Origin: Isoetes taiwanensis
Lineage: Eukaryota > Streptophyta > Lycopodiopsida > Isoetales > Isoetaceae
Direction: 5' to 3'
Assembly (NCBI GenBank): GCA_021234155.1
Contig: JAJEKV010000004.1
Span: 8,870,109-8,934,108, forward strand
Length of the DNA stretch: 64,000 nt
A model generated the notes under the pieces. It saw only the letters and a list, made by a program, of their open reading frames with translations. It did no database searches and had not been told where the DNA came from. Made by a program: the position numbers and the translations under genes. How positions within the stretch are numbered: position 1 is the stretch's first letter; the number at the start of each line of letters is the position of its first letter. Shown here one piece after another: positions 1-62,953 of the stretch.

Positions 1-94
1 ATTTTTTGTAGTTTATGCTAAGCTAGTAACAGTTAAGTGAATTGGAACTTAATAAGACTAAAAAGAATGAGCCAAAACCTCCTCAGGCAAGGTG

Positions 95-160
95 GTCTCA
101 CACGTCGCGCCTGGTCAAAGAACTGAATTTTAGTTTTTGAGCAGTATGCCACCGTGAGAC
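95..160. repeat. ~67-bp inverted-repeat module, copy 1
   Basis: An imperfect palindrome with outer arms GTCTCAC / GTGAGAC and an A/T-rich centre. It is the most diverged of four copies in the first 2.2 kb. It forms a pair with copy 2 upstream of the histone-like ORF. Confidence 0.75.
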
Positions 161-283
161 ATCGAGCCAAGAAACTGATAAACTTGATGAATTTGAGAAA
201 GGTAATATGGTAAGGCCAGTTCTAAGGTAAGAATTAGTTAGAATAGTATGTTTAAATCACTTAAATTACTTAAAGATGTGTAA

Positions 284-352
284 GATCTCACACGTAGCGC
301 CTGGTCTAAAAACTAAACTCTAGTTTTTGAAAGCAGGCGATACTGTGAGACC
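284..352. repeat. ~67-bp inverted-repeat module, copy 2
   Basis: This copy has the clearest three-tier palindrome: outer arms TCTCACA / TGTGAGA, middle arms CGCCTG / CAGGCG and inner arms AAAAACT / AGTTTTT. It lies about 170 bp upstream of a TATAAATAG box. It could act as a protein-binding site or as an RNA hairpin; the sequence does not decide. Confidence 0.8.
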
Positions 353-453
353 AATAAGTAGAAAAGGTCTGAAATAAGTGTAAGTTTTAAGTAAATAGGT
401 GCCTTGGCATGTTAAATAGAGCAACTTGAATTTTGACCTAAAATTGCCCAAGC

Positions 454-462
454 TATAAATAG
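454..462 (+). promoter_or_regulatory. TATA-like box upstream of the histone-like ORF
   Basis: TATAAATAG sits 109 bp before the ATG at 563. The flanking sequence (TTTTGACCT and ATTGCCCAA upstream; CCCTCATTT and a GCTCC..CCCTAAGGCG tract downstream) recurs around the second box at 2391. The two are therefore diverged duplicates of one promoter. Confidence 0.6.
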
Positions 463-562
463 ATGTAGACCCCCCTCATTTGTACGTTCCCGTCCTTGAA
501 ATCTGCTCCCGCTCCCTAAGGCGATCTTTGGCGCCCGATATCCGATTGTCGAACCGTCAAAC

Positions 563-1747
563 ATGGCACGGACCAAGCAGACTGCCAGGAAGGCCCGTCC
601 AGGCGAAACCCCCAGCGCCAGCGACGCCAATCTCATTCAACAGATGCTTCGGGAGAGGCTCGTTGCGAGAGGAGGTCGACTATCTTCGAGCGAGGAGAGC
701 ATCGCAGATGAGCAGAACGAGGAGATAGGCCAGCAGACCGACCGAGAAGAAGATGTGCACTCGGATGCCGGGACAGAGCTGCTCGACGAAGAAGACGAAG
801 AGGAAGAGGAAGCAGCAAAGCGAGAAAGGAGAACCAAGGCCCGAGGGGAGCAGAGGATGCCGACTCCAGAGCCGACCATTGAAGAACAAGTCGAGGCCTG
901 GATTCGCGAGAAAGAAGTAGAGGAGCAGCAAGAGCGGAGCGAGCCAAGGCTCGAGCCAAGTGAAGAGGAAGACCTCGCGGCCTGGATCGCAAAGCATGAA
1001 GCAAAACAACGTCGCAGGAAAAGCAGGAAGAGGAAGAGGGAAGAAGAGGAGGCGAAAGCGGCGGAGGAACTCAAGCAGAAGAAAGGGAAATTTGTCGGGA
1101 GCCCAAGGAAGCTCAAGAAAGTTCCGCAAGTAAAGAATCCTAACCCTAAGATCGTGATCACTGAGAGGCCACCTGATCAGCCACCGAACTCTTCTGGCGA
1201 CTCCTCCGACGAAGACCATGTCCCCAACACCGAAGGTGGAAGCTCTTCTAAGCCCCCAGATGATGAGCAGGCAATACCCCACCAAGAGCACCCCGACCTG
1301 GAGCAGCAGAACCAAGCGCAGAAGCCCCCTCCTTATCCGAAGTGGGACAGGAAGAAGCAACCACGGCCTGCCCGAGAGTCCTATGTCACGGACCCCGTGA
1401 AGATCTATGAGAGAAAGATGAGGGAGCACGAGGCATACATGAAGGAGTGGGAGGCTTACAACTCCTACTATCAGGAGAACAGAGTACGGACCATAGAGGG
1501 TGGACATCCGACAAAGCAGCAGACTCTAAGGCCGCCACCACTGAAGCCCAAGGTCCCTAAGAAGCCAGCCAAGAAAAAGCCCAGCAGGAAGGAGACCGAG
1601 AGAAGAGCGCTAAGAGAGATTAGGCACTTCCAAGCACGCAGTTATGGCCTCCTAATTCCCCGTGCCCCCTTTAATCGTCTAGTTAGAGAAGTCATGCAGG
1701 ACTTCAACACTCGCATGAGGGTCACAGATGAGATGTCTTGGCGGTAA
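563..1747 (+). CDS. Histone H3-like protein with a ~300-residue charged insertion (retroelement-borne)
   Basis: A 394-residue ORF. Residues 2-10 are ARTKQTARK, identical to the first nine residues of mature histone H3, including K4 and K9. S10 is replaced by Ala and the rest of the H3 tail is lost. Residues 40-345 are low-complexity and charged: acidic runs near 76-84, a basic NLS-like cluster at 149-159, two related EE..(A)AWI..E motifs near 108 and 136, then a Pro/Lys-rich stretch. From residue 349 the sequence matches the H3 alphaN-alpha1 region (ALREIR, LLIP, PF.RLVREV.QDF). The HFQ and LLIP.APF residues recall plant CenH3 variants. The ORF stops in WR at the alpha1/alpha2 border, and the next part of the fold continues one frame over. 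The start is set by the tail: ATG-GCA gives an N-terminal Ala after Met removal. The frame stays open although gag-pol is broken. Function is unknown; deposition in chromatin is inference. Confidence 0.85.
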   Translation: MARTKQTARKARPGETPSASDANLIQQMLRERLVARGGRLSSSEESIADEQNEEIGQQTDREEDVHSDAGTELLDEEDEEEEEAAKRERRTKARGEQRMPTPEPTIEEQVEAWIREKEVEEQQERSEPRLEPSEEEDLAAWIAKHEAKQRRRKSRKRKREEEEAKAAEELKQKKGKFVGSPRKLKKVPQVKNPNPKIVITERPPDQPPNSSGDSSDEDHVPNTEGGSSSKPPDDEQAIPHQEHPDLEQQNQAQKPPPYPKWDRKKQPRPARESYVTDPVKIYERKMREHEAYMKEWEAYNSYYQENRVRTIEGGHPTKQQTLRPPPLKPKVPKKPAKKKPSRKETERRALREIRHFQARSYGLLIPRAPFNRLVREVMQDFNTRMRVTDEMSWR

Positions 1748-1866
1748 TCAAGGAAGCGGCCGAAAGCGTAAAAATAGTGCAACATTTTGAAGACTCGACA
1801 GCTTGCACTCATTTTGTAATAATAATCAATTTTGAGTACTTTATGTGTCTGAACTTGTTTAATTAG
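1738..1866 (+). pseudogene. Frame-shifted remainder of the H3-like histone fold
   Basis: Read from the TTG at 1738, one frame away from the 563-1747 ORF, the sequence encodes LAVIKEAAES..., then HFEDSTACTH, then a hydrophobic run, ending at TAG 1864-1866. This resembles H3 alpha2 and loop 2 (ALQEASEA...LFEDTNLCAIHAKRVTIM) with roughly one extra residue. The last helix is not recognisable. The simplest reading is a single-base indel near 1736-1745 that cut the ancestral ORF. Programmed frameshifting is possible but no slippery site is evident. Confidence 0.65.
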
Positions 1867-1932
1867 GACAAGTTAGCAAGTAGTAGTTTTTGTTTTAGTA
1901 AAATAGGACATTTGCAGACCAAAAAGTGTGAT

Positions 1933-1999
1933 GTCTCACACGTCGCGCTTGGTCAAGAAACTAAAGTTTAGTTTTTGGACGAGGCGCTAGCTATGAGAC
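1933..1999. repeat. ~67-bp inverted-repeat module, copy 3
   Basis: Outer arms GTCTCA / TGAGAC. The middle arms GCGCTT / GAGGCGC still pair through a G-U. It lies 200 bp before copy 4 in the promoter region of the second accessory unit. Confidence 0.78.
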
Positions 2000-2132
2000 C
2001 TTGCCCAAATTTGCCCAAAACAGCTCCAAATTGACCAAGTAAGGGATCAATTCTGCCTAATTTGATGAGTCTGTCATGCTTCAACCCTTATTTTATCCAA
2101 ATTGGACATGTTCTGATCGAAATGGGACTGAT

Positions 2133-2199
2133 GTCTCACACGTCGCGCCTGGTCAAGAAACTAAAGTGTAGCTTTTGAACGAGGCGCTACCTGTGAGAC
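2133..2199. repeat. ~67-bp inverted-repeat module, copy 4
   Basis: Outer arms GTCTCACA / TGTGAGAC (8 bp, perfect) and middle arms GCGCCT / AGGCGC. The first 30 bases are nearly identical to copy 3. The second pair of modules has the same place before a TATA box as the first pair. Confidence 0.8.
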
Positions 2200-2390
2200 C
2201 TCCTACCAATTCTTCACCATAACTTGTCCAAATGATCTTCAACCTGTTGTATTAGCATCGTTAGGTAATCCAGTCATGCTCAAACCCTTAAATTAGTCTT
2301 CCAATTCCCATTTTGACCTCAATATAGGCTAGAATTGCCCAACCCCAAGAATTTTCCAAGTCACCCAAAAATTAGGGTTTTTCCCTTTTC

Positions 2391-2399
2391 TATAAATAG
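2391..2399 (+). promoter_or_regulatory. TATA-like box upstream of accessory ORF 2
   Basis: TATAAATAG, followed by CCCTCATTT and GCTCC..CCCTGAGGCG as at the first box. It is 122 bp before the candidate ATG at 2513. Confidence 0.6.
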
Positions 2400-2512
2400 G
2401 TCCCTCATTTCATATGTAGCACCCTACGAGTTTGCTCCTGCCCCCTTAGCCGATTTTCCAGCTCCCTGAGGCGCTCTTGCATCCGTTTGCTAGTCTCTTC
2501 CTCGCTAAACTC

Positions 2513-4040
2513 ATGGCAACCCTCGATTTGGGCGATGATGGTACAGCGCCAGCGCTCATGCTGCCGAGGCTGACATCGATGAGATTTTCCGGGTCTTCCG
2601 GAAAGAAATAGATGTTCAAGCAACCTTGCACGCAACCCCAGCATATAGCAGAGTCCTGTCTGAATTCCAAGCTAGTGTAGAGCCATCGTTAGTACAACTC
2701 CCACCTTGCATAGGCTACTTTGTTCCTAGGCAATCCCTTCAAGCAGCCTTAGGCAATGTTCCTAACATTGCCAAGTATCTCACAAACAAGGCCCAGCGCA
2801 TGCCCGAGCCAATGGTCCCCGACCGGTCAACAGACCAAGTACTTTCTTTCAACGCCAAGTTAGCAATTTTTCTTACCCACCGTGCCGAGAACCCCATGGG
2901 AGAAACTTCCATTCCCCCCATGGACGTGGACCCATTAGCTACCGCAGCAGCACAACAGCTCCTTTCGCAGTATGAACAGGAGCAAGAAGGAAAGGAAGAA
3001 GACGAGAAGTCAGAAGAAGAAGATGACGACTACGTCGAGCTCGATCCAGTAAGAGCACAATGGCTAGCGTAACAAGAGTTGCAAGAATTCAGAGAAGCGG
3101 CAAACTCTCGTGATAGCGCCACCCCTTGGGCTAGGCATCACAAGACTAGCCCCCATCATCGCCGAGGGCTTAAGAGTATTTGCTCCTAAGTTTACATCCA
3201 AAACCTCCTGGGAGTGTGGGAAAGAGAGTATCGACCTGGACGAAGTTGCTGCACCAACCGGAGAATGACACTGACGACTTCATCGTCCGAGGAACCTCCG
3301 ACTTCCCACTCCAAGTAAGGGAAGCCGACACTTATACGGGAGAGTCCACCTCCGACATTCAATCCTATAGCAACATAAGGCAGATTATGGAGGCGCGGGA
3401 ACTACCGACGGAGAAAGAGTTCCTTGCTCTACAGGAACAGATGGGGATCCGCCACAAGACCTCGAACATCTTAACGGCAAGTTCTTCAACAACACCTCCC
3501 CGAACGAGAAGAGGCGAGTTCGACCTCAGGAGAGCTTCAGCAACAGTCAGAGACTACAGGGAGCTCACCACGATGGAGGTCGATGACTATGCCGGCAGAC
3601 ACAGATTTGGAGGCCGAGGAGGCGAGGACCCGTCACACAACGACAGGTCGTTGCGGTATTACCTTCCCCTGCTGATGGATGGAAGAATAGCGGTAATTCA
3701 CCGCAAATTCACCCCCAGGGGCGAGGAAGGAGTATCGATGCTAATTGCGCTCTCAGGCTTTGGCCGGCATGCTCGGCTAGCTCCCAACACCGAGGATGCC
3801 ATCCTGGTGAAGAGAGCGGTAGCACTCGATGTTTTTGACTTTGCCATACCTTACAGACGGCAGGGAAGACTGGCAGTGACCGCCGCCTACACCTCCGAGC
3901 GCAGGATAGAAGATTTGGCGAGAGCTTTGCAGGGTGAATCTTTAGTCAACGTCCTTAGGAACTTGGGTCATTCAGTGGGAACAGCCCAAGTGAAGAAGTT
4001 CCTAGAGGATAATCCATCCTACCGGAGATATCAAGAATAG
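2513..4040 (+). pseudogene. Accessory ORF 2 of the chromovirus, unknown function, frameshifted
   Basis: A candidate start ATG at 2513 (MATLDLGDD) runs about 10 codons before coding potential moves to another frame (open 2539-3072). That frame encodes ADIDEIFRVFRKEI..., a segment with PPCIGYFVPRQSLQ, and an acidic stretch EEDEKSEEEDDD near 2995-3040. A TAA at 3070-3072 interrupts it. Coding-like sequence then continues in a third frame (about 3130-3268) and in the frame open from 3180 to 4040. The last part is about 280 residues, rich in Arg and Asp/Glu, and ends in NPSYRRYQE. At least three frame changes are needed. I do not recognise the family. It follows the same duplicated promoter as the H3-like ORF, so a linked role is plausible but unsupported. 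Confidence 0.55.
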
Positions 4041-4211
4041 TTAGGAATCTTGATCCCGGAAACCTTTTTGTATTAATATATTATATAATATGAATATTTA
4101 ACTTCTTTTGCACTTAATTGTTTTGTTGATGTATTTTTGTTCCGCAACTATACCAACAACACACATAATGCAAGAGAACAAATAAAACTAACATTACAGC
4201 CATGACCAATT
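4041..4211 (+). other. Short AT-rich spacer before gag
   Basis: AT-rich sequence ending in TTGTGTATGCAG directly before the open gag frame, which looks like a 3' splice site. Gag has no ATG at the start of its open frame, so this could be the end of an intron or leader. This is an inference from one motif. Confidence 0.35.
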
Positions 4212-5549
4212 GTGTATGCAGATAGGGAACAAAGAACGGTCGAGCAAAACAGGAGGCCCAATAGAGATGAAGAGACCCCTGACAGGCAACCCCTTCAAAG
4301 GAACCTTTTCGAAGGATATGGCCCCATGACCCCAGAAGAGGAGATGTCGCAAATGCGAACAGAGCTGGACCAGATAAAACCCCTACTAGCAGCACAAGCA
4401 TCAGCCGGGCCACAAACGACACCCCGAAAGTCGGAGAAAGACAAAAGGAGGAGCAAGAGAAGGAGGTTCCCCAGCACAGAGACCTTCGACTCAAGCTCGC
4501 TCTCGGACTCTGAGTCCGAGAAAGAGGCCGACCAGGTGCCGGACCATAGAGACGGCAGATAGAAAGACACTAAGGCCCTGGAGTACCAGAAGAAAGTGGA
4601 CTCAGCACTGGGCAATGTATGGAAAGCCCGGAAACTCGAACAGTTCTCGGGCGAGAACAGATCCGGCTTAGAGGCAGGGGCATGGCTCGACGAAATGAGC
4701 GAGTATGGAAATGCCTACGGCATGAAGGATAAGGACAAAGGCAGGGTGGCAACGGCCAACCTGAAAGGGGCCGCACGCATATGGTGGAAGGGCTATGCCA
4801 AGGCCCATGGTTTGAGCAGAGATGCATGCCGATTTAAGAAGTTCTCAAAAGCTTTCAAACACCACTATGTTCCTCGAGAACACAAGTCAAATATGATGCA
4901 GCAGTTCTACAGGTTGCAACAAGGTTACAAGACGATGCAGAAGTACACCGAAGAATTCATGAGGCTAAGACTGTATGTGCCTAAGCTGAGCGAGAAACAC
5001 GCAGTGGAAAGCTACATAGAAGGACTGAACGAGGAAATCCGGAAGCTCGTAAGGGCAATAGACCCTAAAACAGTATCTGAAGCATAATCCAAGGCAATTA
5101 GTTTGCAAGGATCCGGGCCCCAGAACAGCGCACAGAAGCAGCCTTACTATCAGGATAGAGGCAAAGCAACAGGGAGCTACAGTCCTAGGGCAGCCAGCCC
5201 AAGTCCAGCAAAGTCCCCATACAATAGCAACCAGGGAAAACAGCAGGAAAGAAAGCAGGTGTCCTTCAGGGACAAACAGGAAGGTTCCAACTACTCGAAA
5301 GCAGTACGGTCCTTTTTACAAGCGATGCCCAAGGAGAAAAGGCAGGAATGCATAGACAAGCAGCTCTGCTTTAGATGTTTCCAGCCGGGCCACCGAAGGG
5401 CGAACTGCCCATTTGTTATGAGCTCGGCGCTAGCGGAGTGGGGCGGATGGGACACTCCGTCAGATGAGGACGGCGAGGCAACACGCGATTACATTCAGGA
5501 TGAGTGCCACATCTTCGATGCTATAGATACAGAACAGGCAGAGACCTAG
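4212..5549 (+). pseudogene. Ty3/gypsy Gag with CCHC zinc knuckle, three in-frame stops
   Basis: One reading frame is kept throughout but broken by TAG at 4560-4562, TAA at 5085-5087 and TAG at 5547-5549. The order is a charged N-terminal region with a Ser/Arg patch, then a retrotransposon gag (capsid) domain from about 4610 to 5085 (motifs GAARIWWKGYAK and MQQFYRLQQGYKTMQKYTEEF). A basic linker follows, then a CCHC knuckle (C-X2-C-X4-H-X4-C) at 5367-5408. Gag would package element RNA. The open frame lacks an ATG at its start; the first in-frame ATG is near 4325. Confidence 0.85.
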
Positions 5550-5925
5550 TATAAGGTAATCTCAACAGTAGGGAAGGCAAAGGCTAAGTCTTTCATAGTC
5601 TTGATAGACTCCGGAAGTAGCCATAACTTCGCATCCCCGAGGATGGTTGAAATGTTGAAATTGAAACCCCTAAAGTCCAAGCCAAGACCCATAATCTTGG
5701 CAAGCGGAGCAGTAAGACATACAGCTGGAAAAAGGATCAACCGCCGACATCGATTGGCGAGGGGATTAATATCCGGATGGGGCGAAGTAATGGGCATTGG
5801 CAAGTATGACTTGATCGTTGGAATGGAGTACCTTGGACCAGCGGGGGGCCATCATTGATTGTGGAAAGCGGAAGGTGACCTTCCCAACACCCGGACAAGC
5901 AAAGCCATTGAGATCAAGGTAAAGA
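5550..5925 (+). pseudogene. Retropepsin-like protease of the chromovirus
   Basis: In frame with gag after the TAG at 5547. The aspartic protease signature IDSGSSHNF has its catalytic Asp at 5607-5609, followed by a flap/second-lobe region (KYDLIVGMEYL). The frame is lost in a run of six G near 5841-5846. Beyond it the sequence IIDCGKRKVTF, typical of the protease-RT junction, continues in another frame. Confidence 0.8.
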
Positions 5926-7640
5926 AGTTACTCCCATCATGCAGCGTATGTCTGTTAAGAAGCTGCTCAAGTCTATAAAGAGCGAGCAGGTAGCATACAT
6001 CTTCAAACTCGAGGTTGAGGAACCCGAGTCGGAGGGAAGCAAAGAAGAAAAAGTGCTCAGCAAGTTGCCCAAGCAAATCGCCAACTTGATCACGGAGTTC
6101 CACGATCTCTTTCCAGATGAGATCGAGAAGCTTCCTCCCCACTTGGGGAGTAGAGTGTGAGATAGCACTCGAACCAGGGACCAAGCCGACGAGCAAGGCC
6201 CCATATAGAATGACCACACATGAACTCACGGAGCTAAAGAAGCAGTTACAAGAATTGCTCGATCTACGCAGCGTCTCACCATTTGGGGCACCCATCCTCT
6301 TTGTCAAGAAAAAGGATGGAAGCTTGAGAATGTGCATAAATTATAGATAATTGAACAAGCACACCATCAAGAACAAGTACGCACTCCCCAGATCGGACGA
6401 CTTGATGGATCAGCTCCAAGGGGCAAAGGTCTTCTCCAAGATCGACCTAAGGTCAGGTTATCACCAGATCAGAATAAAGAAAGGGGACATCCACAAAACG
6501 GCTTTCATGGGCATTACGAGTTCACTGTAATGCCATTTGGGCTATCCAACGCCCCAGCTACGTTCATGAGACTCATGAACGACATCTTCAGAGAATTCTT
6601 AGACAACTTTGTCATAGTATTCTTCGACGATATTCTAGTGTACAGCAAAACCATTGAAGAGCATGCACAACACGTAAGAAAGGTGCTCGAGAAGTTAAGG
6701 AGGCATCAGTTGTATGCCAAGTTGTCGAAGTGCCACTTCACAACAGAGAAGGTGGAATACCTCGGTCATGTGATTTCAGCAGAAGGAATCTCGACAGACC
6801 CCGCTAAGATTGAAGCAGTAATCCAATGGCCGGCACCAAAGAACGTCCATGAGGTCAGAAGTTTCCTTGGCCTCGCAGGGTATTACAGAAAGTTCGTGAA
6901 GAACTTCGCAAAGATAGCAGCCCCACTGACAGACTTGACAAAGGCGGAGAAAGTGAAAAATTGGGCAGACCATTGGCTCAAGAAAGCCCAAGTAGGATTT
7001 GAATTGTTGAAGGAAGCTTTGACAACCGCCCCCGTCTTAACCCTGCCAGACCCAGAAAAGGACAAGTTAGTGGCGACGGACGTAAGCAAGATGGCCACAG
7101 GTGCAGTGCTCATGCAAGAGGAGCGGGTAATAGCGTACGACTCAAGGAAGATGAACGACGCCGAAACGCATTACCCGACGCACGACCAAGAGCTGCTAGC
7201 AGTTGGCAGGGCGTTGAGAATCTGGAGGCATTACCTCTTAGGGAGGAAGTTCCAGCTGGACACTGATCACCAGAGCCTCCAGTACGTATTCACGCAACCA
7301 CATCTCAATCTGAGGCAGAGAAGGTGGATGGAGTTTCTCGAGGAGTACGACTTTGATATAGTCTACAAGCCCGGGAAACTTAATGTGGTCGTAGATGCGC
7401 TTTCAAGGCATCCGCTGACAACCAGGGTGCATTGCAAGGCAATCTCAACACTCTTCAGCGATTTCGGGAAAAAGATAGAAGAAACCTTGCCAACAGATGT
7501 GGACTTCAAGGAAGTATGGGCAAGCTTGTGCAAGGAAGCGAAAACGGATAAGGAGAGGGAAACCTTCAAAAATTTTAAGAAGGAAGGTAACCTCCTATAC
7601 CACAAGAACAAGTTGTGCGTGCCGGAATCATCTGGAGTAA
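5926..7640 (+). pseudogene. Reverse transcriptase and RNase H of the chromovirus
   Basis: The RT starts in one frame ([14 protein letters not shown]), shifts near 6150 and is read to a stop at 6348 (INYR[18 protein letters not shown]). It shifts again near 6510, where a few codons before [11 protein letters not shown] are missing. It is then open without a break from 6530. The active site reads VFFDDIL (Asp-Asp at 6626-6631), with Phe before the DD pair. RNase H follows from about 7065 with its acidic residues in place ([26 protein letters not shown]). Frameshifts and stops are confined to the N-terminal third. Confidence 0.88.
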
Positions 7641-8963
7641 GAAAGTTGATCCTCCACGACACCCACAACAGCCCAATAGCTGGCCACGCAGGATTCATGA
7701 AGACATACTTTAAAGTGCGTAGCAGCTACTATTGGCCAGGAATGAAGAAGCAGATAGCTCGCCACATCAAGGAGCGCCAGCTATGCCAGCAAACGAAGGC
7801 AGAACAACTTCAAATTCCAGGGGCATTGGAACCACTAGCGGTGCCAAACGCTAAGTGGGAGGTTGTCATCATGGACTTTATAACAGGACTGCCAAGGACA
7901 GTAAGAGGTAAGGATGCCTTGATGGTCGTGGTCGACAAGTTGTCGAAGATGGCCCATTTTGTGCCTTGCAGGACCACGGACACAGCTATGGATACGGCAA
8001 AGCTCTTCACCAAAGAGATCTTCAGACTCCATGGCATGCCAAGGAAAATTATCTCCGACCGAGATCCGAAGTTCATCAGTGCCTTCTGGCAGGATCTCTT
8101 CACAACGATTGGAACGAAGCTATCCATGAGCACGGCTTATCATCCGCAGACGGATGGGCAAACGGAGCGTGTCAACAGAATATTGGAAGACATGCTCCGA
8201 AACTATGTCTGGAACAAGCAAGGTATGTGGGAGGAATTTATTCACTTGGTGGAGTTTGCATACAATAGCACCAAGCAGGAATCATCCCAAATGTCGTCGT
8301 TCATGATCAACTGCGGCTACCAATGCCTACTTGGCACAATCCCGTGTCAAAAGTGGAAGTTTCGCAGCAAATGTTGAGCGACATGCAGCAGCTTGTGGAA
8401 GAAGTTCGAGGGTACCTTCTAGCAAAAGAAGGAGTCGGCAGAAGAGCATTATTGACACAAACATCGGAAAATCGAGAGAATTCCAAGTCAGAGATGATGT
8501 ATGGCTCAAGATCAAGGTAAAGCAGGCGAAACTCCGCATCGGAAATTGCAAGAAGCTTGCTCCAAGATGGGCTGGACCCTTCAGAATAGTCCCGAGAGTG
8601 GGCAACCAATCCTACAAGTTAGACTTGCCAGCACACTTAAAGATCCACAAAGTCTTCCACGTGAGTCTGCTGAAGAAGCATACTCCTAATCTAGAGGAAG
8701 TTTTGGACACCCCAACGATGTTGGAAATGACAGAAGAGCAGATAGAAATAGTTCCAGAACTAATTCTTGATAAAGCATTCAAGAAAACAAGGAGATCGGA
8801 GTTTCTCCAATACTTGGTCAAGTGGAAACACTTGCCGGTGGAAGACGCGACATGGGCACTTAAAAGAGATCTGGAAAAACAGTACCCACAGTTTATGGAG
8901 CAATGGGACGGCAAGGTCATCTCCGAAGAAATCGGCTCAGGCATGTCGAATTGTGTAGATTAA
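7641..8963 (+). pseudogene. Integrase of the chromovirus, with GPY/F and chromodomain
   Basis: The N-terminal HHCC zinc region is present ([11 protein letters not shown]...), but its first Cys is Arg (CGC at 7775-7777, RQLCQ). The catalytic triad is complete: Asp 7874-7876, Asp 8057-8059 and Glu 8165-8167, with 35 residues between the second and third. The frame is lost near 8335-8380 and recovers in a third frame. It then runs through FQVRDDVWLKIK, a GPY/F-like motif (PRWAGPFRIV), VFHVSLLKKH and the chromodomain, to TAA at 8961-8963. Integrase inserts the element cDNA; the C-terminal chromodomain would bias target choice. Confidence 0.88.
8754..8900 (+). other. Integrase chromodomain
   Basis: PELILDKAFKK, FLQYLVKWK and ATWALKRDLEK match the chromodomain core. 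The central Trp of the methyl-lysine cage is present (LVKWK). The first and third cage positions are not aromatic, as in the group II chromodomains of plant chromoviruses. In this family the domain is thought to direct integration to particular chromatin. Confidence 0.8.
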
Positions 8964-9735
8964 TAGCTTGCCTACTTAAGTATAATCTACGCATGCAACC
9001 TATGAGGTAAGGGTTGCATGCGTTGTTACCGATGATGAGATTACTACGGTGATCTCTAGGACGTGGTGTAATGTCAATGTAGGCATGACCGCGGTGCCGC
9101 TTGGAAAGTCTACTTCTGTCCCACGGAAGTAGACGACCTCGAGAGAAAGGAGGTCATTGAGGAATGCATTGATAGGAAAAGCACCTCTAGCCCCATATAT
9201 GCTTTGATAGGAGGAATCTGGCCTTCACGCCCCATATACGGGAAGGACCTATCCTCCACGCTGGGCAACTAAAGGTGTAGGCATGAGCGCCATATAGGCA
9301 TTATAGGCACTGTCTCCTCGGCCACGATGGAAGAATATCATCCTCTTCCTACGCCGAGAGATTAGCCATGCATTCATGTAGATAGGTGGGGTGGTCATCA
9401 TATAACCAAAATTTTATTTAATATTAATGGTACTAACGTAGTATTGACCTGCAGGCCAATAGAGCGCTCCGGAGGTCGAACTACGAAGATTTGCAACACA
9501 ATTTTTTTGTAATGTGTTGCAAGGAATAAAGAGTACCTCAAAGAATAATTGTACATATAATAATAAAACCGAAACATTAGGAGTTATTGTTATAATGACA
9601 AAGTGATAACTATTGGATTGAATAATAGTATAATAATGTTCTATAAATATTACCTTGAGGTAATTCTATTAAATGTATAACTATAGTAATAAGTATGTCC
9701 TATGCATGAGGTTGATTGCAGGTTAAGAAGATCCC
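8964..9735 (+). other. 3' untranslated region of the chromovirus
   Basis: No ORF of interest. Several short imperfect repeats with CCCCATATA / CGCCATATAGGC motifs occur between about 9180 and 9320. The rest is AT-rich. Confidence 0.5.
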
Positions 9736-9748
9736 AAGGTGGGGAGAA
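9736..9748 (+). other. Upstream copy of the polypurine tract
   Basis: AAGGTGGGGAGAA, identical to the tract next to the 3' LTR and 40 bp before it. It may be an unused or decoy plus-strand primer. Confidence 0.6.
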
Positions 9749-9775
9749 CCACGATGCTGCGGACAGCATCAATTC

Positions 9776-9788
9776 AAGGTGGGGAGAA
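9776..9788 (+). other. Polypurine tract adjoining the 3' LTR
   Basis: AAGGTGGGGAGAA directly precedes the LTR 5' end (TGTGACG), the classical plant Ty3/gypsy arrangement that primes plus-strand DNA synthesis. Confidence 0.85.
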
Positions 9789-11276
9789 TGTGACGTTCCA
9801 GTACGATATACGGTCTCAAGACGTATACCGCATCTGCGCAAAAATCCACTGCATTACACGCCGCCCGGGCCGACGGTGTCACGCGCCCTAGGGGGCAACT
9901 TGCAATGGTGCGCACACTTAGCAATGCGCGCACCTTTAGAACTTTAACCCATTAAAGGTAGACCAAGGGTCATGGAAACCCTAAACCTAACTGATAGCCT
10001 ACATAAGGCACCAAACCCTAACATTCCCTTTTTTAGCCCACTGAGACCTCCCGAGCTCGATTACAAGACTTGAGGAGTCAATTCCAACTCCCACGATCTG
10101 CCCGTGTGCCCCAGCTTGTCAGATCATTCCTCCAACCGCATCCCGAAGCAGAACAGAGACATGGACACCTTCGGATCAAGAGGAGGAACCCAGGGGATCA
10201 GGTATTTGGTCGATTGAATAGCCTAAACCTTATTCCAGCCTTCGAACCAGTAGGTTTAGCCTATTAAACCGCCCTTAGTAGCCAAGCTGATCCTGAGATT
10301 GACTCTAACTAAAGAACCTAACTCTATGAGATAGATTAGTTCTTATTGCTTATGTTGATATGATGGACTTAATGCATTACGTGGACTCATTGTATTGGGA
10401 AGGGGGGTAGAGACTTAAAGCTTAGTAGATGATGCTCCTAGCTAGTCCCTCTTAGTGCATTACTAGAATTCGGCCTGTATATAGGAGCCCACCTGGTTGT
10501 GGGTGAAAGGGCCAGACTGGCTTAGAATGAGGTTCGTGTTCTGACCCTTGACCGATCCCTCTGGTGTGTAAGGCCTACCGGGGATCAGAGTGACTAGGTC
10601 TAATGGCTTGCCACTGAGTGTGGGTAAGGCATGGGCTCGACACCCGTGGGGTGGTGTACACCTTCCAGTGGGTTAAGTCGAATAAGGGCAGTGGCCCTCT
10701 AGTCATCTTGGGTCAGCATGTAGATCTCTGGAGGGAGCGATCCCTACCTGCCCCATCGGGACTGGGGAGATGTAACCCAGGAATAGCCCCTTTGGCTATG
10801 CACCCGGCGGGCTACAGTCAGGTCCCAACACTTTTCAACCTACTCTGCAAAGTGTACACAGGAGGGGCGGATGGAGTGGACAACCCTAAGCCATGTTCTT
10901 ATGCCAGCCCAACCCATTGTCATAATTCTGTCTGCAATGAACTCTGGAGACCCAAGCTTGTCAGTCATCCCCTGGAGTCTGAGCCTTGGGTAGGAACTTC
11001 CTTTGTATTGTGCTGATCTTTGTCTATGCAGATGTTGAGGTGCCACCCTTCGAGGTGGATATATGATGTTATGTTACTGACGTGTATGTTTACACTTCTG
11101 CAGCTAGGTAGGCCCTGAGGGAGACGGGGTAAAATGACCCCTTCACTCTTCCCACTGTGGACTCTAGAAGGTCACAGTGATATGTGGAGGGCCCTGTATC
11201 AGTGTGGAGCTGGTGCGGGGGATGAACTCCTGTTTGTATACGGTGCGGGCATCGTATACGAGTAGGGGACGTCACA
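9789..11276 (+). repeat. 3' LTR of the chromovirus (about 1488 bp)
   Basis: Starts TGTGACG straight after the polypurine tract and ends CGTCACA, a perfect 7-bp inverted terminus. ORFs inside it are short and unconvincing. The partner LTR is outside the window, so age by LTR divergence cannot be judged. The target duplication cannot be checked because the other flank is missing. Confidence 0.8.
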
Positions 11277-13746: not shown

Positions 13747-15298
13747 GGTCTATAGTCGGCAAAAGAGATGGGGGAATCAATTTTGGGTATAAGAGTGATA
13801 AGGCTAGTATTGATTCGAGCATCCAGACGCTTGCAAATTCTGAACTCATTAGCCAGTCTGGTGATACCTACTCCAAGAATAGGCCAGGCTTTTTTAAAAA
13901 ATTCAGCTGGTAAACCATCTGGACCAGGGGTTTTACCATTTTCCATACCCATGATTACTTCCTTGAGCTCGATTTCCGAGAAGGGGGAAGAGATCAACTC
14001 ATTCTGATTGTCATTTACCTTATTCCCTATTTTAATAAAAGTATCCATCATCTCTTCAGGACAATCAGTATTTGTGCCCATGATATTAGTGAAATGCTCA
14101 ACTGCAGCTTTTTTAAGATCTTTATCATCAGAGATAAGAGCATCTCCAACTCTGATCTCATAGATCTGGTTTCTTTTGATCCTTGTTTTGGTTTTGACAA
14201 AAAAATACTTGGAGTTACACCTCTCGTCCTCTTTGAGCTCCTTGATTTTTGCTTTCGTTTTCCACCGTTTGGCAATCTCAAGCTCCTCTTTTTCTATCTG
14301 GATCTTAATGTCATTCTGTTGATCAGTGGGAGTGTTGATAAGCCTTTGCCTTAGGCTGGCTAGATTGGCTTGCTTGTTGTAGTGAATCTCCTTACCCCAT
14401 TCTTTCAGCCAGCTTTTTAAATGTTTAGCTAGATTGATCCACCACCACATCCAACCCTTGTCAGTAGCAGGAATGGGGTGGCAATTATAAATATCTTGGA
14501 GCTTGGGAAGAAAGTCTTCATGATCAAGAAGACTGACATTCAACTTGAAAAAAGATTTTCTTTTATTTTGGTCTGCACCACTTAAGATAATTAACTGAGG
14601 GTAGTGATCATAGAGGGTGTAGCCAGCCAAATTCTCAACCCTACTACTAATGGTCCAAAAATTTTCACTGAGGTAAAATCTGTCATGAAGACAGCAAATG
14701 GGGTCAACTCTATGATCAGACCAGCTGAAAGAATTCGGCTTGGTCCTGGCCAGCTTAAGATTATGAGCATAGAGAAGGCTGACCCAAGCATTCATCTCTT
14801 GAGGAAGAAGGGCCTTAAAATTCCTATTTTTCATAAAGCAATCAGTAACCATGTTGAAATCACCGCCAATAATCAAATCATCAACATCTAAACTAGCTAG
14901 ACTAGAGTTAATTTTATTCCAGACTAAAATTCTATCCAAAGGATTATGATAAGAGTAGACATTAACTAAAGCTATATTACCAGATCCGATCTTGCAGACC
15001 AAGATCTGCCATCTACCATTATTATCATTAATCATGTGATCAGTTGCAGATCAATTCTCTGATTCCAAGCTATAGCTATACCTGCAGAAGAGTCGTTAGC
15101 ACTTATAGACCACGTTTGAAAATTAGGAGGGAGAGCTCTGGAAATAATAGTATTATGATTAGGATCATGAATCTTATGTTCCTGGATGAATAAGATATCA
15201 GGGTTGAGGGAGGAGAGGCAGGCTTTTAAACGCTCCCTTTTAATAAGATTGTTAATCCCCTGGAGATTCCAGGTAATAATTCTAAGGGAATTAAACAT
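13743..15298 (-). pseudogene. L1 ORF2 N-terminal part: APE endonuclease and start of RT
   Basis: Two frames. 15298-15032 gives the endonuclease N-terminus (RIITWNLQGIN, LFIQEHK). 15035-13743 gives the rest (LIIGGDFNMV, DHYPQL) and then the linker and RT start (GKTPGPDGLPAEFF, LITLIPKI). The two frames overlap by four bases at ATGA near 15032, where the reading frame is lost by a small indel. The catalytic Asn, Glu, Asp and His motifs of APE endonucleases are recognisable. Confidence 0.85.
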
Positions 15299-15630
15299 TA
15301 ATATTTATAAAAGCCCTTGGCCATTATTATCATTAATCATGTGATCAGTTGCAGATCAATTCTCTGATTCCAAGCTATAGCTATACCTGCAGAAGAGTCG
15401 TTAGCACTTATAGACCACGTTTGAAAATTAGGAGGGAGAGCTCTGGAAATAATAGTATTATGATTAGGATCATGAATCTTATGTTCCTGGATGAATAAGA
15501 TATCAGGGTTGAGGGAGGAGAGGCAGACTTTTAAACGCTCCCTTTTAATAAGATTGTTAATCCCCTGGAGATTCCAGGTAATAATTCTAAGGGAATTAAA
15601 CATTAATATTTATAAAAGCCCTTGGCCATT
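15021..15630. repeat. 305-bp direct tandem duplication inside the L1
   Basis: Positions 15021-15325 and 15326-15630 are almost identical. I saw one base difference, which changes Ala to Val in the encoded endonuclease. Both copies end in CCATT, which also precedes the first copy. The second copy (15337-15603, minus strand) repeats the endonuclease N-terminus, including the same start codon. Confidence 0.9.
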
Positions 15631-58477: not shown

Positions 58478-58490
58478 GGCTCTGATACCA
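58478..58490 (-). other. Primer binding site of the copia element
   Basis: The minus strand reads TGGTATCAGAGCC directly after the LTR end, the usual complement of initiator tRNA-Met in plant copia elements. Confidence 0.85.
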
Positions 58491-58791
58491 TGTTGGAAAA
58501 CGTATCAGTTATGGACTGATACAAACCTCAGCACAGAGTGAGCCAAAGCGAAAGCAAGAATGGAAGAGACACGATAGGAATAGAATAGGAACAATCTGAA
58601 TGTTCTATGTATTGCATGTAATCTATAAATACATGGAATGAATGGCACTGAAAGGCCAACAGCCGGAAACAGAAGGCCAAAGGCCAGAGATGTACATGAT
58701 GTACTACTAATGTACTCTAATATACATCAATGTATCTAATGTACATCAATGTACTCTAAATGTACTCTAATGTACAGCTTGAATTCTAACA
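58491..58791 (-). repeat. Ty1/copia LTR (301 bp)
   Basis: Termini TGTTAGAA...TTCCAACA on the minus strand. It contains a run of ATGTAC-type repeats (about 58695-58775). A primer binding site follows on one side and a polypurine tract (GAAAGGGAAG, 58792-58801) precedes on the other. It is therefore shared by two internal regions. Confidence 0.85.
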
Positions 58792-58846
58792 CTTCCCTTT
58801 CAAGCTGGATAATCTGAAGCTACTGCAATGGTATAACACCAAGTGC

Positions 58847-59407
58847 TTATCTAAACTGTACAAACTTTTGTGTGCCCAGTGGCTTAGTAAAGATATCTGC
58901 AACCATTGCACCAGTGGGCGAATAGATTAATGAAATGATTGCTTTCTCCACTAGATCACGGACATAATGATAATGAATTGGAATGTGCTTTGTCCGAGGA
59001 TGATGTTCTGGTCGCTCTGCCATTTTCATGCAACTTTGGTTGTCCACATAAACATGATTAGATTGCTGCGCAGAAATACCAATATCATTAAGCAAGTGGT
59101 CATACCAAATAAGATCTGCAACTCCAGTAGATAAGGCAATGTATACTGCCTCTGCTGAAGATCGCACTACAACATATTGCTTTTTGCTTATCCAGCCTAC
59201 TGCACCTCCATAAAACATGCATGTGCTACCTGTAGTGGAATGAGAATCCATGTTGTTGCCCCAACTTGCATCAGTAAATGCACGAAGACTTGCTGATCCG
59301 TTATCACAATAACAGATTCCATACTCTTTTGTTCCTTGCAAATAACGAAGAACACTCTTTGCTAGCTGCCAATGCTTTAATTCATAACAGTGATTAAACT
59401 GACTCAA
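58847..59407 (-). pseudogene. Ty1/copia RNase H
   Basis: Motifs FTDASWG, SSAEAVYIALS (Val replaces the usual Glu in AEAEY), VDNQSCMKMAE, TKHIPIHYHYVRD and VADIFTKPLG, in family order. It is separated from RT by a stop near 59435. Confidence 0.87.
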
Positions 59408-59434
59408 TGCAATGACAACAAAACAAAGATCAGG

Positions 59435-60556
59435 TCATGTTATGGTCATGAGATACATAAAACTCCCAACAAGCTGCCTATATGGTAGAAAAGATGACTG
59501 CACATTATCACAAACAATTTCATCTTCAAACAATTTGATGCCAGCTTCCATTGGCGTGGAAACAGGCTTACAATCTGCCATGCGAAATTGCTCAAGCAAA
59601 AATTCAGCATACTGAGATTGGCTGATATGAATTAGCCTCTTCTTCCTATCACGATGTATCTGCATACCCAAGAAAGAGCTAGCTGCACCCAAATCTTTCA
59701 TCTTAAACCTGCTAGTTAGTTGAGATTTAAGTGCTTGAACATCAAGAAGATTGCTGTCCATTGCAAGCATATCATCTACATACAGCACTAAAATCAAATA
59801 CATATCTCCCATGCACTTGATGTAGACATTAGAATCTGTTGTAGCAATTTGAAATTGCATCATCAAACTTCTTGTACCAACCCCGAGACGCCTGCTTTAA
59901 GCCATAAATGGCCTTCCAGAGTTTACATACCTTGTTTTCTTGGCCGGATACTTCAAAACCTGGAGGTTGCAGCATATAGATGTCCTCAACCAAATGCCCT
60001 ATCCACATCCATTTGATGAATTTCCCAATCCAATTTGGCTCCTAAGGCAAGCAAAAGACGCAAGCTATTCATTCTCACGACCGGTGAAAATGTCTCATCA
60101 TAGTCAAGACCTTTGACTTGGCTGAAACTTTGAGCAACTAGCCTAGCCTTATACTTGTCAAGCTTGCTATCAGGCTTGTACTTCTTCTTGAATAGCCATT
60201 TGCAATCCACTGCTTTGCGTCCAACGGGCAAATCAACAAGTTCCCACACCCCATGGATGCGAGCTCTACCTCAGCTGCCCATTTCCAATGTGAAGCTTCA
60301 GAGGAAGCCCATGCTTCCTCAATGCTTGTTGGTTCACCTTGCACTGCCAAGCAATACCATTTAACCAAACTAAGTTCAGCATTTTCAAGAACTTTACGAG
60401 AAGGTGTTCTGCTACGTGGTGGCAACAGTTGATAGGAGGAGGGAGCATTTGAATGAGCCAAGGATCAGGAAGAACTTGATTATGAGGTGGATCATCATTG
60501 GTGGGTTGTTGCACATCCACTGGCAAAGGCACATCTTGCTGTTGGTCCAACGTCAA
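59435..60556 (-). pseudogene. Ty1/copia reverse transcriptase
   Basis: Starts with MWELVDLPVGRKAVDCKWLF, KARLVAQSFSQVKGLDYDETFSPV and IHQMDVDRAFG (60249-59986). Then comes a frameshift and damaged stretch (59867-59985). The open part with LILVLYVDDML (active-site Asp-Asp) and FKMKDLGAASSFLGMQI follows at 59866-59435. The upstream linker (60461-60266) is frameshifted. Confidence 0.87.
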
Positions 60557-60595
60557 ATCTTGAAGCTCAACGAGTGGAGGATCATCAAGAACAAG

Positions 60596-61725
60596 TTATT
60601 TGTCTTGAATGAAGTTTCCATCTGCAAGTGGATCAATAGACATAGAATTTGACTCATCAAAAACTACTTCTGAGCTGGTGTATACCTTTCTCTGCTCTTG
60701 ATCCCGCAACAAGTATGCTTTATGATTAGGTGCATAGCCAATAAAAGTGCATTTGGTGCTACGGGCATCAAATTTTCTGCGTAAATGCTCAGATACATGT
60801 ACATAGGCGATACATCCAAAGGTGCACAAATGAGAAACATCTGGTTTCTCTCCAGACCAAGCTTCTTCTGGAGTCATCTCATTATCCAAGGCAATTGTGG
60901 TCAATCTGTTTTGCACATGAACTGCTGCAGCAATTGCATCAGCCCAAAAATACTTTGGCAAATGACTTTCAGCAAGCATACTTCTTGCCGCATTGCACAA
61001 AGTGTGATTCTTCCTCTTCGCAACACCATTTTGTTGAGGAGTAGCCCTCGTTGTGCATTGACACTGAATCCCTGCCTGATCACATGTATCATGAAAGAGA
61101 TCACTAAGATACTCTCCACCACCATCAGTGCGCAATTGCTTAATCTTCTTCCCTGTCTGATTTTCTACACATGCTTTATACAATTTAAAAGCCTCAAGAG
61201 CATCACTTTTCTTGGTTAGAAAATAGACAATTGTTTTCCGACTAAAATCATCAATAAACATGATGAAATATACTGCCTTGCCAAGGCGCGCAGACACCTC
61301 TGTTGGTCCACAAAGATCTGAGTGGACAAGCTCCAGCACTTGCTTAGCTCTGCTGCCTACACTTGCAAATGATCTGCGAGGGTGCTTACCAAGGATGCAT
61401 GCTTCACAAAGATCCGGGTCTGCCTTCATAGTTATCTTCATGCCATGAACCATGTTCTTCCGCTGCATTATTTTTAACGCTTGAACATTAGCGTGACCGT
61501 ACCTTTTGTGCCAAAGTAGCACTTCTCCTTTTCTTTGGCTGATACTACTAGGACCTGATTTGGATCAGACACCTCCAGCTCATACAAATTGCCATGTCTT
61601 GAGCCCTTGGCCACTATATCCCCTTCAATCCGTGCATTCTTCAAAAAAAGAACTTCCTTATCATCAAAGAAAACTTGCAGACCAGCATCTGCTGCACATG
61701 CAACTGACAAAAGGTTTTTTCGCAA
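60596..61725 (-). pseudogene. Ty1/copia integrase
   Basis: The pre-integrase region (KNLLSVACAADAGLQVFF) runs from 61725 to 61474. The integrase proper follows: the HHCC zinc region (LLWHKRYGHAN...CEACILGK), VHSDLCGPTEV (first Asp), QLRTDGGGEYLSDLF (second Asp) and PQQNGVAKRKNH. The catalytic Glu is Lys (AAG, 61016-61018), which should abolish integration. Confidence 0.88.
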
Positions 61726-61743
61726 TTTCCGGACATGTAAGGT

Positions 61744-62558
61744 TTATGGAAGTACCGTATTTTCACCATTCAATAGCGTGAAATGATATTGACCATTTCC
61801 TTGCACTTCAATTTCACTATGATCTCCCAATTGCACCAGACTTTTGTCATTTTGATAACTTGAGAATAGATCCCTATCCTTCAACATCCTTGATGTGCAT
61901 GCAGAATCCACTGTAAGAACCTTCCTTCCAGCAGCAGTACATGCACTTGTTTCCACAACAGAAGCCTTCCCTTTAATTCTGAGACTCCGTTTTGATTGGA
62001 TCACAAGAGAAGCCTCTCCTTTGACGACTTGTGCCTCAACTAGGTGTGCTTTCTCTGGTTTGTTCTTTTCCTCTGGACAATCGACTGCATAATGGCCATA
62101 TTCAAAGCAGTTCCTGCATTGCCCTCTCTTAGCATAAGCTTTCTTAGGACGTGCTCCTTTTGATCCGTCCACCTTCCCATCCGATTGTTTTTTGTAATGA
62201 GGCTTCTTATCTTGCCTCCCTCGTGCAAGCATGGCTTGTGATGGCTTGGAATCCTCCACTTTGTCTTTCAAGCGCATCTCTTTCTGCAAAAGCTTAGAGA
62301 CGACGTCATCCCATGAAATACTACTTTGAGCTGTCAAAAAATCAACAAAGTTTTCCCATGAATTCGGAAGAGAAGCATATAACTGGAGCTTTTGTTGCCC
62401 CTCTGGAACTGCATACTTGGAATCTGCTGCTGCCAACATATCAAACATCTCCTTCATTTGATTTATGTGTGTATTCAGATCAGCTCCTTCCACATACTTG
62501 CAATTCCTAATCTGTGTATACAAATGCATAACTTCACCTTCTGTTTTGGTGCCATACT
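61744..62558 (-). pseudogene. Ty1/copia Gag and protease start, upstream unit, truncated
   Basis: Nearly identical to the gag of the downstream unit from YGTKTEGEVMHLYT onward, with the same CCHC knuckle and LTVDSACTS protease start but without its three stops. The gag N-terminus is missing: homology stops at 62558, and unrelated sequence with a TIR element follows. Codons upstream of this point in the open frame come from that insertion. Confidence 0.85.
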
Positions 62559-62632
62559 TCATACCCGGGGGGTTCACCTCTATGTAAAGGGGATATGGCA
62601 TGTGCGTTCCAGGGGTCGGGAGAAACCCCTCC

Positions 62633-62953
62633 GGGTGAAAGCATGCTAGGGTGTACCATCTAAAGTTCTTTTTAGGGAGTGCAAAACTACCCAAAAAATT
62701 ACCCAGCACTGGGTACTGGGAACTTGCATAAGTGTCTCAATAAACAATAAGTTTGAGAGTTGATTCATTAATTTTAGTCTTTAGTAATATTGTTATCCTC
62801 TAATACTATAGATTGACATGTTATTGACCTTTAATTCAAAAGTTTTAAATCGATTTTAATGGAAAGAAAAAATAGAAAGTACTAGTTTTAAAAGTACCCA
62901 GTGAAGGTACTTTTGAGGGTTTCAAAAGTGGTACACCGTAGCATGCTTTCACC
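62633..62953. mobile_element. MITE-like TIR element (~320 bp)
   Basis: The left end GGGTGAAAGCATGCTAGGGT and the reverse complement of the right end GGGTGAAAGCATGCTACGGT differ by one base. Both continue to GTACCA. Flanks CCCCTCCG (left) and CCTCCG (right) suggest a short target duplication. It is non-coding. Confidence 0.7.

Follow-up and report, generated by a model that had tools for sequence, protein, structure and literature searches.

A histone H3-derived gene carried and maintained by a chromovirus lineage of Isoetes taiwanensis

Results

An H3-like open reading frame is the first gene of a chromovirus

The window, by which we mean the whole 64,000-nucleotide stretch of Isoetes taiwanensis DNA that was analyzed (assembly GCA_021234155.1, contig JAJEKV010000004.1, positions 8,870,109 to 8,934,108, forward strand), opens within an LTR retrotransposon. 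The H3-like open reading frame (ORF) is the first gene of this approximately 12.9-kb chromovirus (Ty3/gypsy), in which the order is LTR, primer-binding site (PBS), H3-like ORF, ORF2, gag, pol, chromodomain, polypurine tract and LTR. The features are as follows; coordinates are those of the window except for the first line, which lies in the adjoining upstream sequence (L031).

L031:8418-9888: 5' LTR, just left of the window
91..163, + strand: 73-nt hairpin-like repeat, copy 1
281..353, + strand: 73-nt hairpin-like repeat, copy 2
454..461, + strand: TATAAATA, candidate internal promoter, 109 bp before the ATG of the H3-like ORF
563..1747, + strand: H3-like ORF of the window copy, 394 aa, 3' end broken
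563..592, + strand: exact H3 N-terminus MARTKQTARK with K4 and K9 present (ORF translation)
593..1606, + strand: charged stretch from tail to fold (dN/dS 0.21 in unbroken copies)
1607..1744, + strand: H3 alphaN-alpha1-L1 and start of alpha2 (Pfam Histone, solved H3 chains)
1741..1866, + strand: alpha2-like continuation in another frame, without the L2-alpha3 part
1929..2001, + strand: 73-nt hairpin-like repeat, copy 3
2129..2201, + strand: 73-nt hairpin-like repeat, copy 4
2391..2398, + strand: second TATAAATA, before ORF2
2513..4040, + strand: ORF2, no assigned function, frame broken in the window
4212..5549, + strand: gag region with capsid domain (PF03732, 2.4e-17), frame broken
5601..8377, + strand: pol region with reverse transcriptase (RT), RNase H and integrase (Pfam), frame broken
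8331..8963, + strand: integrase C-terminus with chromodomain (PF00385, 1.4e-10)
9776..9788, + strand: polypurine tract (by eye)
9789..11276, + strand: 3' LTR (TGTGACG...CGTCACA)

An earlier note, made from the letters alone, had proposed that this ORF starts with the exact N-terminus of H3, that an H3 alphaN-alpha1 segment follows in the same frame 338 residues later, and that an alpha2-like part lies just beyond. The translation opens MARTKQTARKARPG, and the N-terminal similarity to H3 forms a separate, correctly ordered stretch which is weak when taken alone (5.1 bits). The C-terminal part, for which the note had suggested a Pfam search, gave a significant match to Pfam Histone (PF00125) over residues 321-388, at 6.6e-9 and above the curated cut-off; solved H3 chains aligned to residues 313-387, the best at 8.4e-9. 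The frame of the window copy breaks near 1741, and the shifted tail at 1741-1866, searched alone, was without a histone match. This alpha2-like tail is nevertheless genuine, judging from unbroken relatives, which run in one frame through alpha2, L2 and alpha3. Relative to another copy, about 95 bp around position 1810 are absent from the window copy, which therefore lacks L2-alpha3. The note's description therefore holds, and the window copy is a broken member of its family; the complete alphaN-alpha1-alpha2-alpha3 fold is found in the unbroken relatives. The spacing from tail to fold is 338 residues in the window copy and 320-345 in eight unbroken copies, as against 37 in H3.

The note's placement of the ORF inside the internal region of a chromovirus was borne out by the location of LTRs, a tRNA PBS, gag, pol with integrase after RNase H, and a chromodomain. 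The LTRs start with TGTGACG and finish with CGTCACA, and the 5' and 3' LTRs disagree at 52 of 1467 aligned positions. One base after the 5' LTR end (L031:9888) lies TGGTATCAGAGC, which we take to be the usual tRNA-Met PBS; a candidate PBS at about window position 529 was discarded on these grounds. The gag region contains a zinc-knuckle-like match below the curated Pfam cut-off. ORF2 matched no Pfam family above cut-off; it is open for 481 aa in a near-identical neighbouring copy (L031:1141-2586), and its product is a possible partner of the H3-like protein. That neighbour lies directly upstream (L031:1-10000 against window 1-11276, 97.1% identity over 9956 aligned columns) and shares one LTR with the window copy, in the arrangement internal-LTR-internal-LTR. 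In another copy, a 5-bp target-site duplication, TACAT, was seen by eye around a compound insertion.

Unbroken copies of the window's family encode a complete H3 fold

The genome (1,658,258,908 bp in 1110 contigs) was searched with the window ORF. From 17,794 first-look candidates, 105 were scored; at least 113 matches were obtained at E<=0.001, the window's own included, the full-length ones being 62-90% identical. A chance or low-complexity match, which the note had considered unlikely, is excluded by these genome-wide copies together with the Pfam and PDB scores. Many of the matches contain internal stops.

Thirty loci of this family, termed family A, were fetched, the window's own (L001) among them. 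In 12 of the 30, L001 included, the ORF is covered by an open frame exceeding 400 aa, and 8 of the 30 have a MARTK-type start from which the frame stays open to the end of the fold (419-444 aa), so that the ORF is present in other copies of the element, whose lack would have told against the note's reading. The start is exactly MARTKQTARK in six of these eight, the others having MAQTK and MARTKQIARK, and one of the eight has a 4-residue gap in alpha2. At 24 of the 30 loci, an LTR end plus PBS with zero mismatch lies 654-722 bp upstream of the match, whereas the remaining six have 4-6 mismatches at best, which we count as no match; ORF2 lies downstream at 28 of 30. A host gene beside an unrelated insertion was ruled out by this constant arrangement of PBS, ORF and ORF2. 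The exact LTR-end/PBS junction occurs 1318 times in the genome (634 forward, 684 reverse), a count of junctions and not of H3-like ORFs; a reversed-pattern control gave 0.

Three unbroken copies scanned against Pfam Histone scored from 2.8e-23 to 3.8e-29, and one family A fold aligned to an H3.3 chain without gaps over 108 residues (E=2e-30). By this H3.3 alignment, and in H3 numbering, family A keeps R49, R52, R69, R72, R83, C110, H113 and A114, and also K115, R116, T118, D123 and L126, residues which we take to serve in DNA contact and in the H3-H3' bundle. It departs from host H3 at positions 86-89, presumably those used by histone chaperones. In the tail, K4 and K9 are kept, S10, K14 and the K27 context are lost, and a KKP stretch aligns with K36-K37. 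An AlphaFold model of the protein (mean pLDDT 51; means per 10 residues of about 39-69 in the fold region) was too weak to be used as structural support; long helices are predicted in the charged stretches of the models of both families described here.

A first search of a protein database of 5.8 billion entries returned 8 proteins from 7999 candidates scored, all of them long models with canonical H3 stretches, and the C-terminal region, searched against the same database, yielded 29 candidates, none of them a match. The unbroken family A fold gave 1280 matches from 1292 candidates. The best 120 of these are 50-61% identical and mostly nameless, and the named histones among them are labelled histone H3 or histone-domain protein. 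Viral contigs scanned for relatives of family A yielded 215 pattern matches, none of which was confirmed.

A second, more H3-like family replaces the tail with a globular domain

A second family in the same genome, which was invisible from the window, extends the note's proposal. With canonical H3 as query, 8983 first-look candidates were obtained, of which 150 were scored and all 150 matched: 15 at 96-97% identity and the other 135 at 70-85% over the fold, in open frames of about 110 to 567 aa. One element of this second family, family B, was traced through two adjoining loci.

L055:8319-9545: family B H3 fusion, with the N-domain at residues 1-230
L056:3-1157: family B ORF2

It has LTRs 92.8% identical to each other, a PBS, the H3 fusion as a 409-aa ORF (Pfam Histone 8.1e-41) and ORF2, followed by gag-PR-RT-RH, integrase, chromodomain and LTR; the protease was matched by Pfam in family B. 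Homology between the ORF2 products of the two families was significant (E=4e-12), so that at least two families carry an H3-derived gene and a shared ORF2 ahead of gag and after the 5' LTR and PBS; in all five loci L050-L054 an ORF2 match lies downstream, 22-34% identical to that of A. L050-L053 are broken copies, with a histone-fold frame only 124-190 aa long. Fourteen further B-type copies were chosen for their long open frames, and in every one a long ORF terminates in a complete H3 fold; three of them (L066, L068 and L070), with a more divergent N-terminal part, were set apart as type C.

The ORFs of B and related types are 408-451 aa long. In B the tail is replaced by a globular N-domain, about 230 residues long, and a linker, similarity to H3 beginning at about residue 37. 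Neither A nor B has the approximately 135-residue form of the H3 family, with the tail joined directly to the fold. The proteins start with MA[N/I/T]TK, MPRFK or MEEVK, and ARTKQTARK was not encountered; MA[N/I/T]TK resembles the H3 start and may be a relic of it. An AlphaFold model of a B protein (L057) gave the N-domain high confidence and the fold region mean pLDDT values of 40-52 per 10 residues; the whole model, compared with solved and viral structures, had no match at E<=0.001. Viral contigs scanned for relatives of B gave two distant matches (38-39%). An internal ARKSG motif, similar to the K9/K27 context of H3, was observed in the linkers of three of the 14 further copies (L057, L059 and L064).

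The H3 parts are amplified and under purifying selection

Histone H4 served as a control. All 69 of its first-look candidates were scored, yielding 43 matches; 16 were full-length, at 99-100% identity, and none lay in a frame of more than 176 aa. It is H3, and not H4, that has been amplified, with 8983 against 69 first-look candidates, which are not the same as confirmed matches, and the H3-derived gene has dispersed along with its elements across very many sites.

Among the eight unbroken family A ORFs (28 pairs), dN/dS was lowest in the first 15 aa (0.034), followed by the fold (0.078) and the insert (0.21), with a mean pairwise dS of 0.66 over the whole ORF. Among 12 family B ORFs (66 pairs), the fold had a value of 0.030, the N-domain 0.097 and the linker 0.223, and the mean pairwise dS was 1.03; 15 pairs of N-domains and 1 pair of linkers had no defined dS. 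Both samples consist of unbroken ORFs, the B copies having been picked for long frames, and thereby favour constrained copies. The H3 parts of A and B are under purifying selection, and preservation by chance is implausible at mean dS values this high. We regard it as almost certain that the gene is an H3-derived element gene kept by selection.

Candidate signals upstream of the two first genes

All 30 family A loci carry the TATA-like site TATAAATA 84-110 bp ahead of the aligned start, and 28 of the 30 have a second one before ORF2. When 24 leaders were aligned (mean identity 93.4%), TATAAATA fell among the 31 8-base windows, out of 687, that were fully invariant, as did the ends of the 73-nt repeat; with the TATA site as the anchor of the alignment and 31 windows invariant, this is a weak test of conservation. 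Six loci of types B and C were devoid of TATA[AT]A over 400 bp, apart from a single occurrence at -242. The 73-nt repeats are imperfect palindromes, GTCTCACA...TGTGAGAC, and two of them stand before each internal TATA site.

One capture or two

Whether H3 was captured once or twice is a question of origin, and either answer is compatible with any mechanism. A tree of the fold (38 rows, 31 of them different, and 89 columns, with CENH3 rows included) grouped B and C beside canonical H3 (84/70) and set A apart with a long branch of its own (100/99). Identity to host H3 is 84-90% for the fold of B (45 pairs) and only 55-59% for that of A (50 pairs), and A shares EIRHFQ and LLIP with plant CENH3s. 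Two independent captures, of a divergent H3 or CENH3 by A and of canonical H3 by B, would account for these observations and for a tree which does not join A with B. We nevertheless consider them unlikely, and a single capture before the split of A and B probable, because the ORF2 products are homologous and the gene order is the same in both families. A single clade of A, B and C was not rejected by the AU test (p=0.167, log-likelihood 8.86 lower).

A may derive from a CENH3, but several features speak against this. CENH3s are recognized by a lengthened loop 1 with a tryptophan and by a divergent tail; in A, loop 1 has the length of that in H3 and contains no tryptophan, and the start of the tail is canonical. 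No CENH3-named protein was present among the best 120 of the 1280 database matches to the A fold. In both families synonymous sites have diverged from host H3 almost to saturation (pS 0.92 and 0.90), so that neither capture is recent.

Discussion

Relation to known systems

The machinery of the element is ordinary; the novelty is the captured H3 gene and its radiation. Additional ORFs (aORFs) in the internal region of plant LTR retrotransposons, present in many copies per family, have been described (Vicient and Casacuberta 2020, PMC7264820); according to the sections of that paper available to us, the most frequent lie between pol and the 3' LTR, antisense aORFs have no known similar sequence outside elements, and elements which capture host genes, such as maize Bs1, carry them in one or few copies. 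The H3-like ORF resembles these aORFs in being an extra internal ORF conserved across many copies of a family, and differs in lying upstream of gag, in sense orientation, in deriving from a core histone and in its very large number of copies. Plant chromoviruses, in the portion of PMC3350952 at hand, share with our element gag-pol with a chromodomain, and LTRs; no H3-like gene is mentioned there, whereas our element has two genes before gag.

Viral histones offer a second comparison. In the available text of PMC5423620 and PMC9145170, a bracovirus H4 joins host nucleosomes and alters gene expression via its extended tail, and giant viruses carry single H3s (PMC9145170). These too are captured core histones with extended or altered tails, but they belong to DNA viruses, whereas the carrier here is an LTR retrotransposon with an RT and very many chromosomal copies. 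The bracovirus H4 is a working precedent for the mechanism preferred below. The main text of the viral histone review (PMC9145170) contains 'retrotransposon' and 'retroelement' 0 times and 'transposable' once. In a search of the open-licence literature by titles and the starts of abstracts, with preprints outside its scope, no retroelement-encoded core histone was found. CENH3 and other long-tailed H3 variants (long cenH3 tails are named in the same review, as available) share with A an H3 fold and a long, divergent N-terminal extension, as well as LLIP and HFQ; A differs in its canonical H3 N-terminus, in having neither the loop-1 extension nor the tryptophan, and in residing on a mobile element.

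A selected H3 with a proposed role in the chromatin of the element

The explanation we prefer, and to which we give about even credence, is that an ancient capture gave the lineage an H3 which it retains, nucleosome-competent and with an altered tail, to shape the chromatin of its own DNA. The H3-like protein would be made alongside the other proteins of the element, in A perhaps from the internal TATA site, and would pair with host H4; a nucleosome with host H4 would be the simplest use of such a protein. It would then enter nucleosomes on newly made element DNA or on integrated copies, a step that we consider somewhat more probable than not. There it would display an altered tail, which in A is part-canonical, with K4 and K9 kept, and in B is replaced altogether. 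Nucleosomes of this kind might answer host silencing differently, either by blunting it or by setting a chromatin state for transcription or integration; that the protein serves in anti-silencing or chromatin control is a reading to which we give slightly less than even weight. Against the preferred explanation count the departure of A from host H3 at positions 86-89, the low confidence of the AlphaFold models in the fold region of both families, and a chromodomain by which direct reading of H3K9me is doubtful. A bolder version, which we put forward tentatively and think unlikely as it stands, is that the lineage makes its own nucleosomes, the retroelement-encoded H3 replacing host H3 on element DNA and an epigenetic state of its own being written there; the set of H3 variants in the lineage (A with an exact tail, B and C with a globular domain) is more diverse than the 15 canonical host H3 loci found.

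An architectural or nucleocapsid-like protein, which would pack the RNA or cDNA of the element in the particle and never exchange into host nucleosomes, is the strongest competing explanation, though improbable. The gene sits in the block upstream of gag, and the long charged stretches with their predicted helices would suit a structural role. Yet a mere binder of nucleic acid needs neither an exact H3 tail (dN/dS 0.034) nor a whole H3 fold (0.03-0.08), and gag already has a zinc-knuckle-like stretch of its own, albeit below the curated cut-off.

Somewhat less probable again is a tether, in which the H3-like protein would link the integrase, via the chromodomain or ORF2, to chromatin and so direct insertion. 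The element is a chromovirus with a chromodomain, and A keeps the ARTKQTARK peptide, which is read by HP1-type chromodomains. When inspected by eye, however, the chromodomain of the window element has I, W and L at cage positions Y24, W45 and Y48, and B is without an H3 tail at its start. In the available part of PMC3350952, Y24, W45 and Y48 are the cage aromatics of group I chromodomains, and the role of group II chromodomains is described as little understood. With two of the three aromatics absent, the window chromodomain does not have the group I, H3K9me-reading cage and is assigned by these residues to group II, which makes direct reading of H3K9me by the integrase doubtful.

The protein could also act as a decoy, a histone mimic which sequesters silencing enzymes, readers or chaperones of the host without entering nucleosomes. 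In favour of this are the tail peptide with K4 and K9, which is under the strongest constraint in A, and the ARKSG motif in 3 of the 14 further B-type copies; a tail mimic, however, needs no conserved fold, and in B the fold is the most constrained part (0.030), so that we rate a decoy slightly below a tether. That the H3 fragment is a functionless passenger, amplified passively, is very improbable in spite of the broken window copy and the many matches with internal stops, since purifying selection has been strong over mean pairwise dS values of 0.66 in A and 1.03 in B.

The marks by which retrotransposons are silenced sit on H3; an element with its own selected H3, as the preferred explanation would have it, would attack or bypass silencing at its substrate and not at its enzymes. 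Between them, the two families also supply, ready-made by nature, a library of H3 folds whose tails have been replaced, which could be used to test what the tail is required for. H3 gene counts, repeat masking and H3-based annotation may mislead in such genomes. The Isoetes repeat library was filtered to drop repeats resembling plant proteins, according to the portion of PMC8566536 available; this filter could have removed the H3 elements, and may be why they have gone unnoticed.

Other elements in the window

A Ty1/copia-like element occupies 58479-62709 (- strand); past its 3' side, at 58479 (- strand), is an exact tRNA-Met PBS-like 12-mer which may belong to another element. Several non-LTR RT copies, approximately 64-70% alike, lie at 24097-45427 (- strand) beside (GA)n repeats, and the two that were scanned both match RVT_1. 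At 15016-15630, at the edge of a LINE-like ORF, there is a tandem duplication with 300 identical nt at a spacing of 305.
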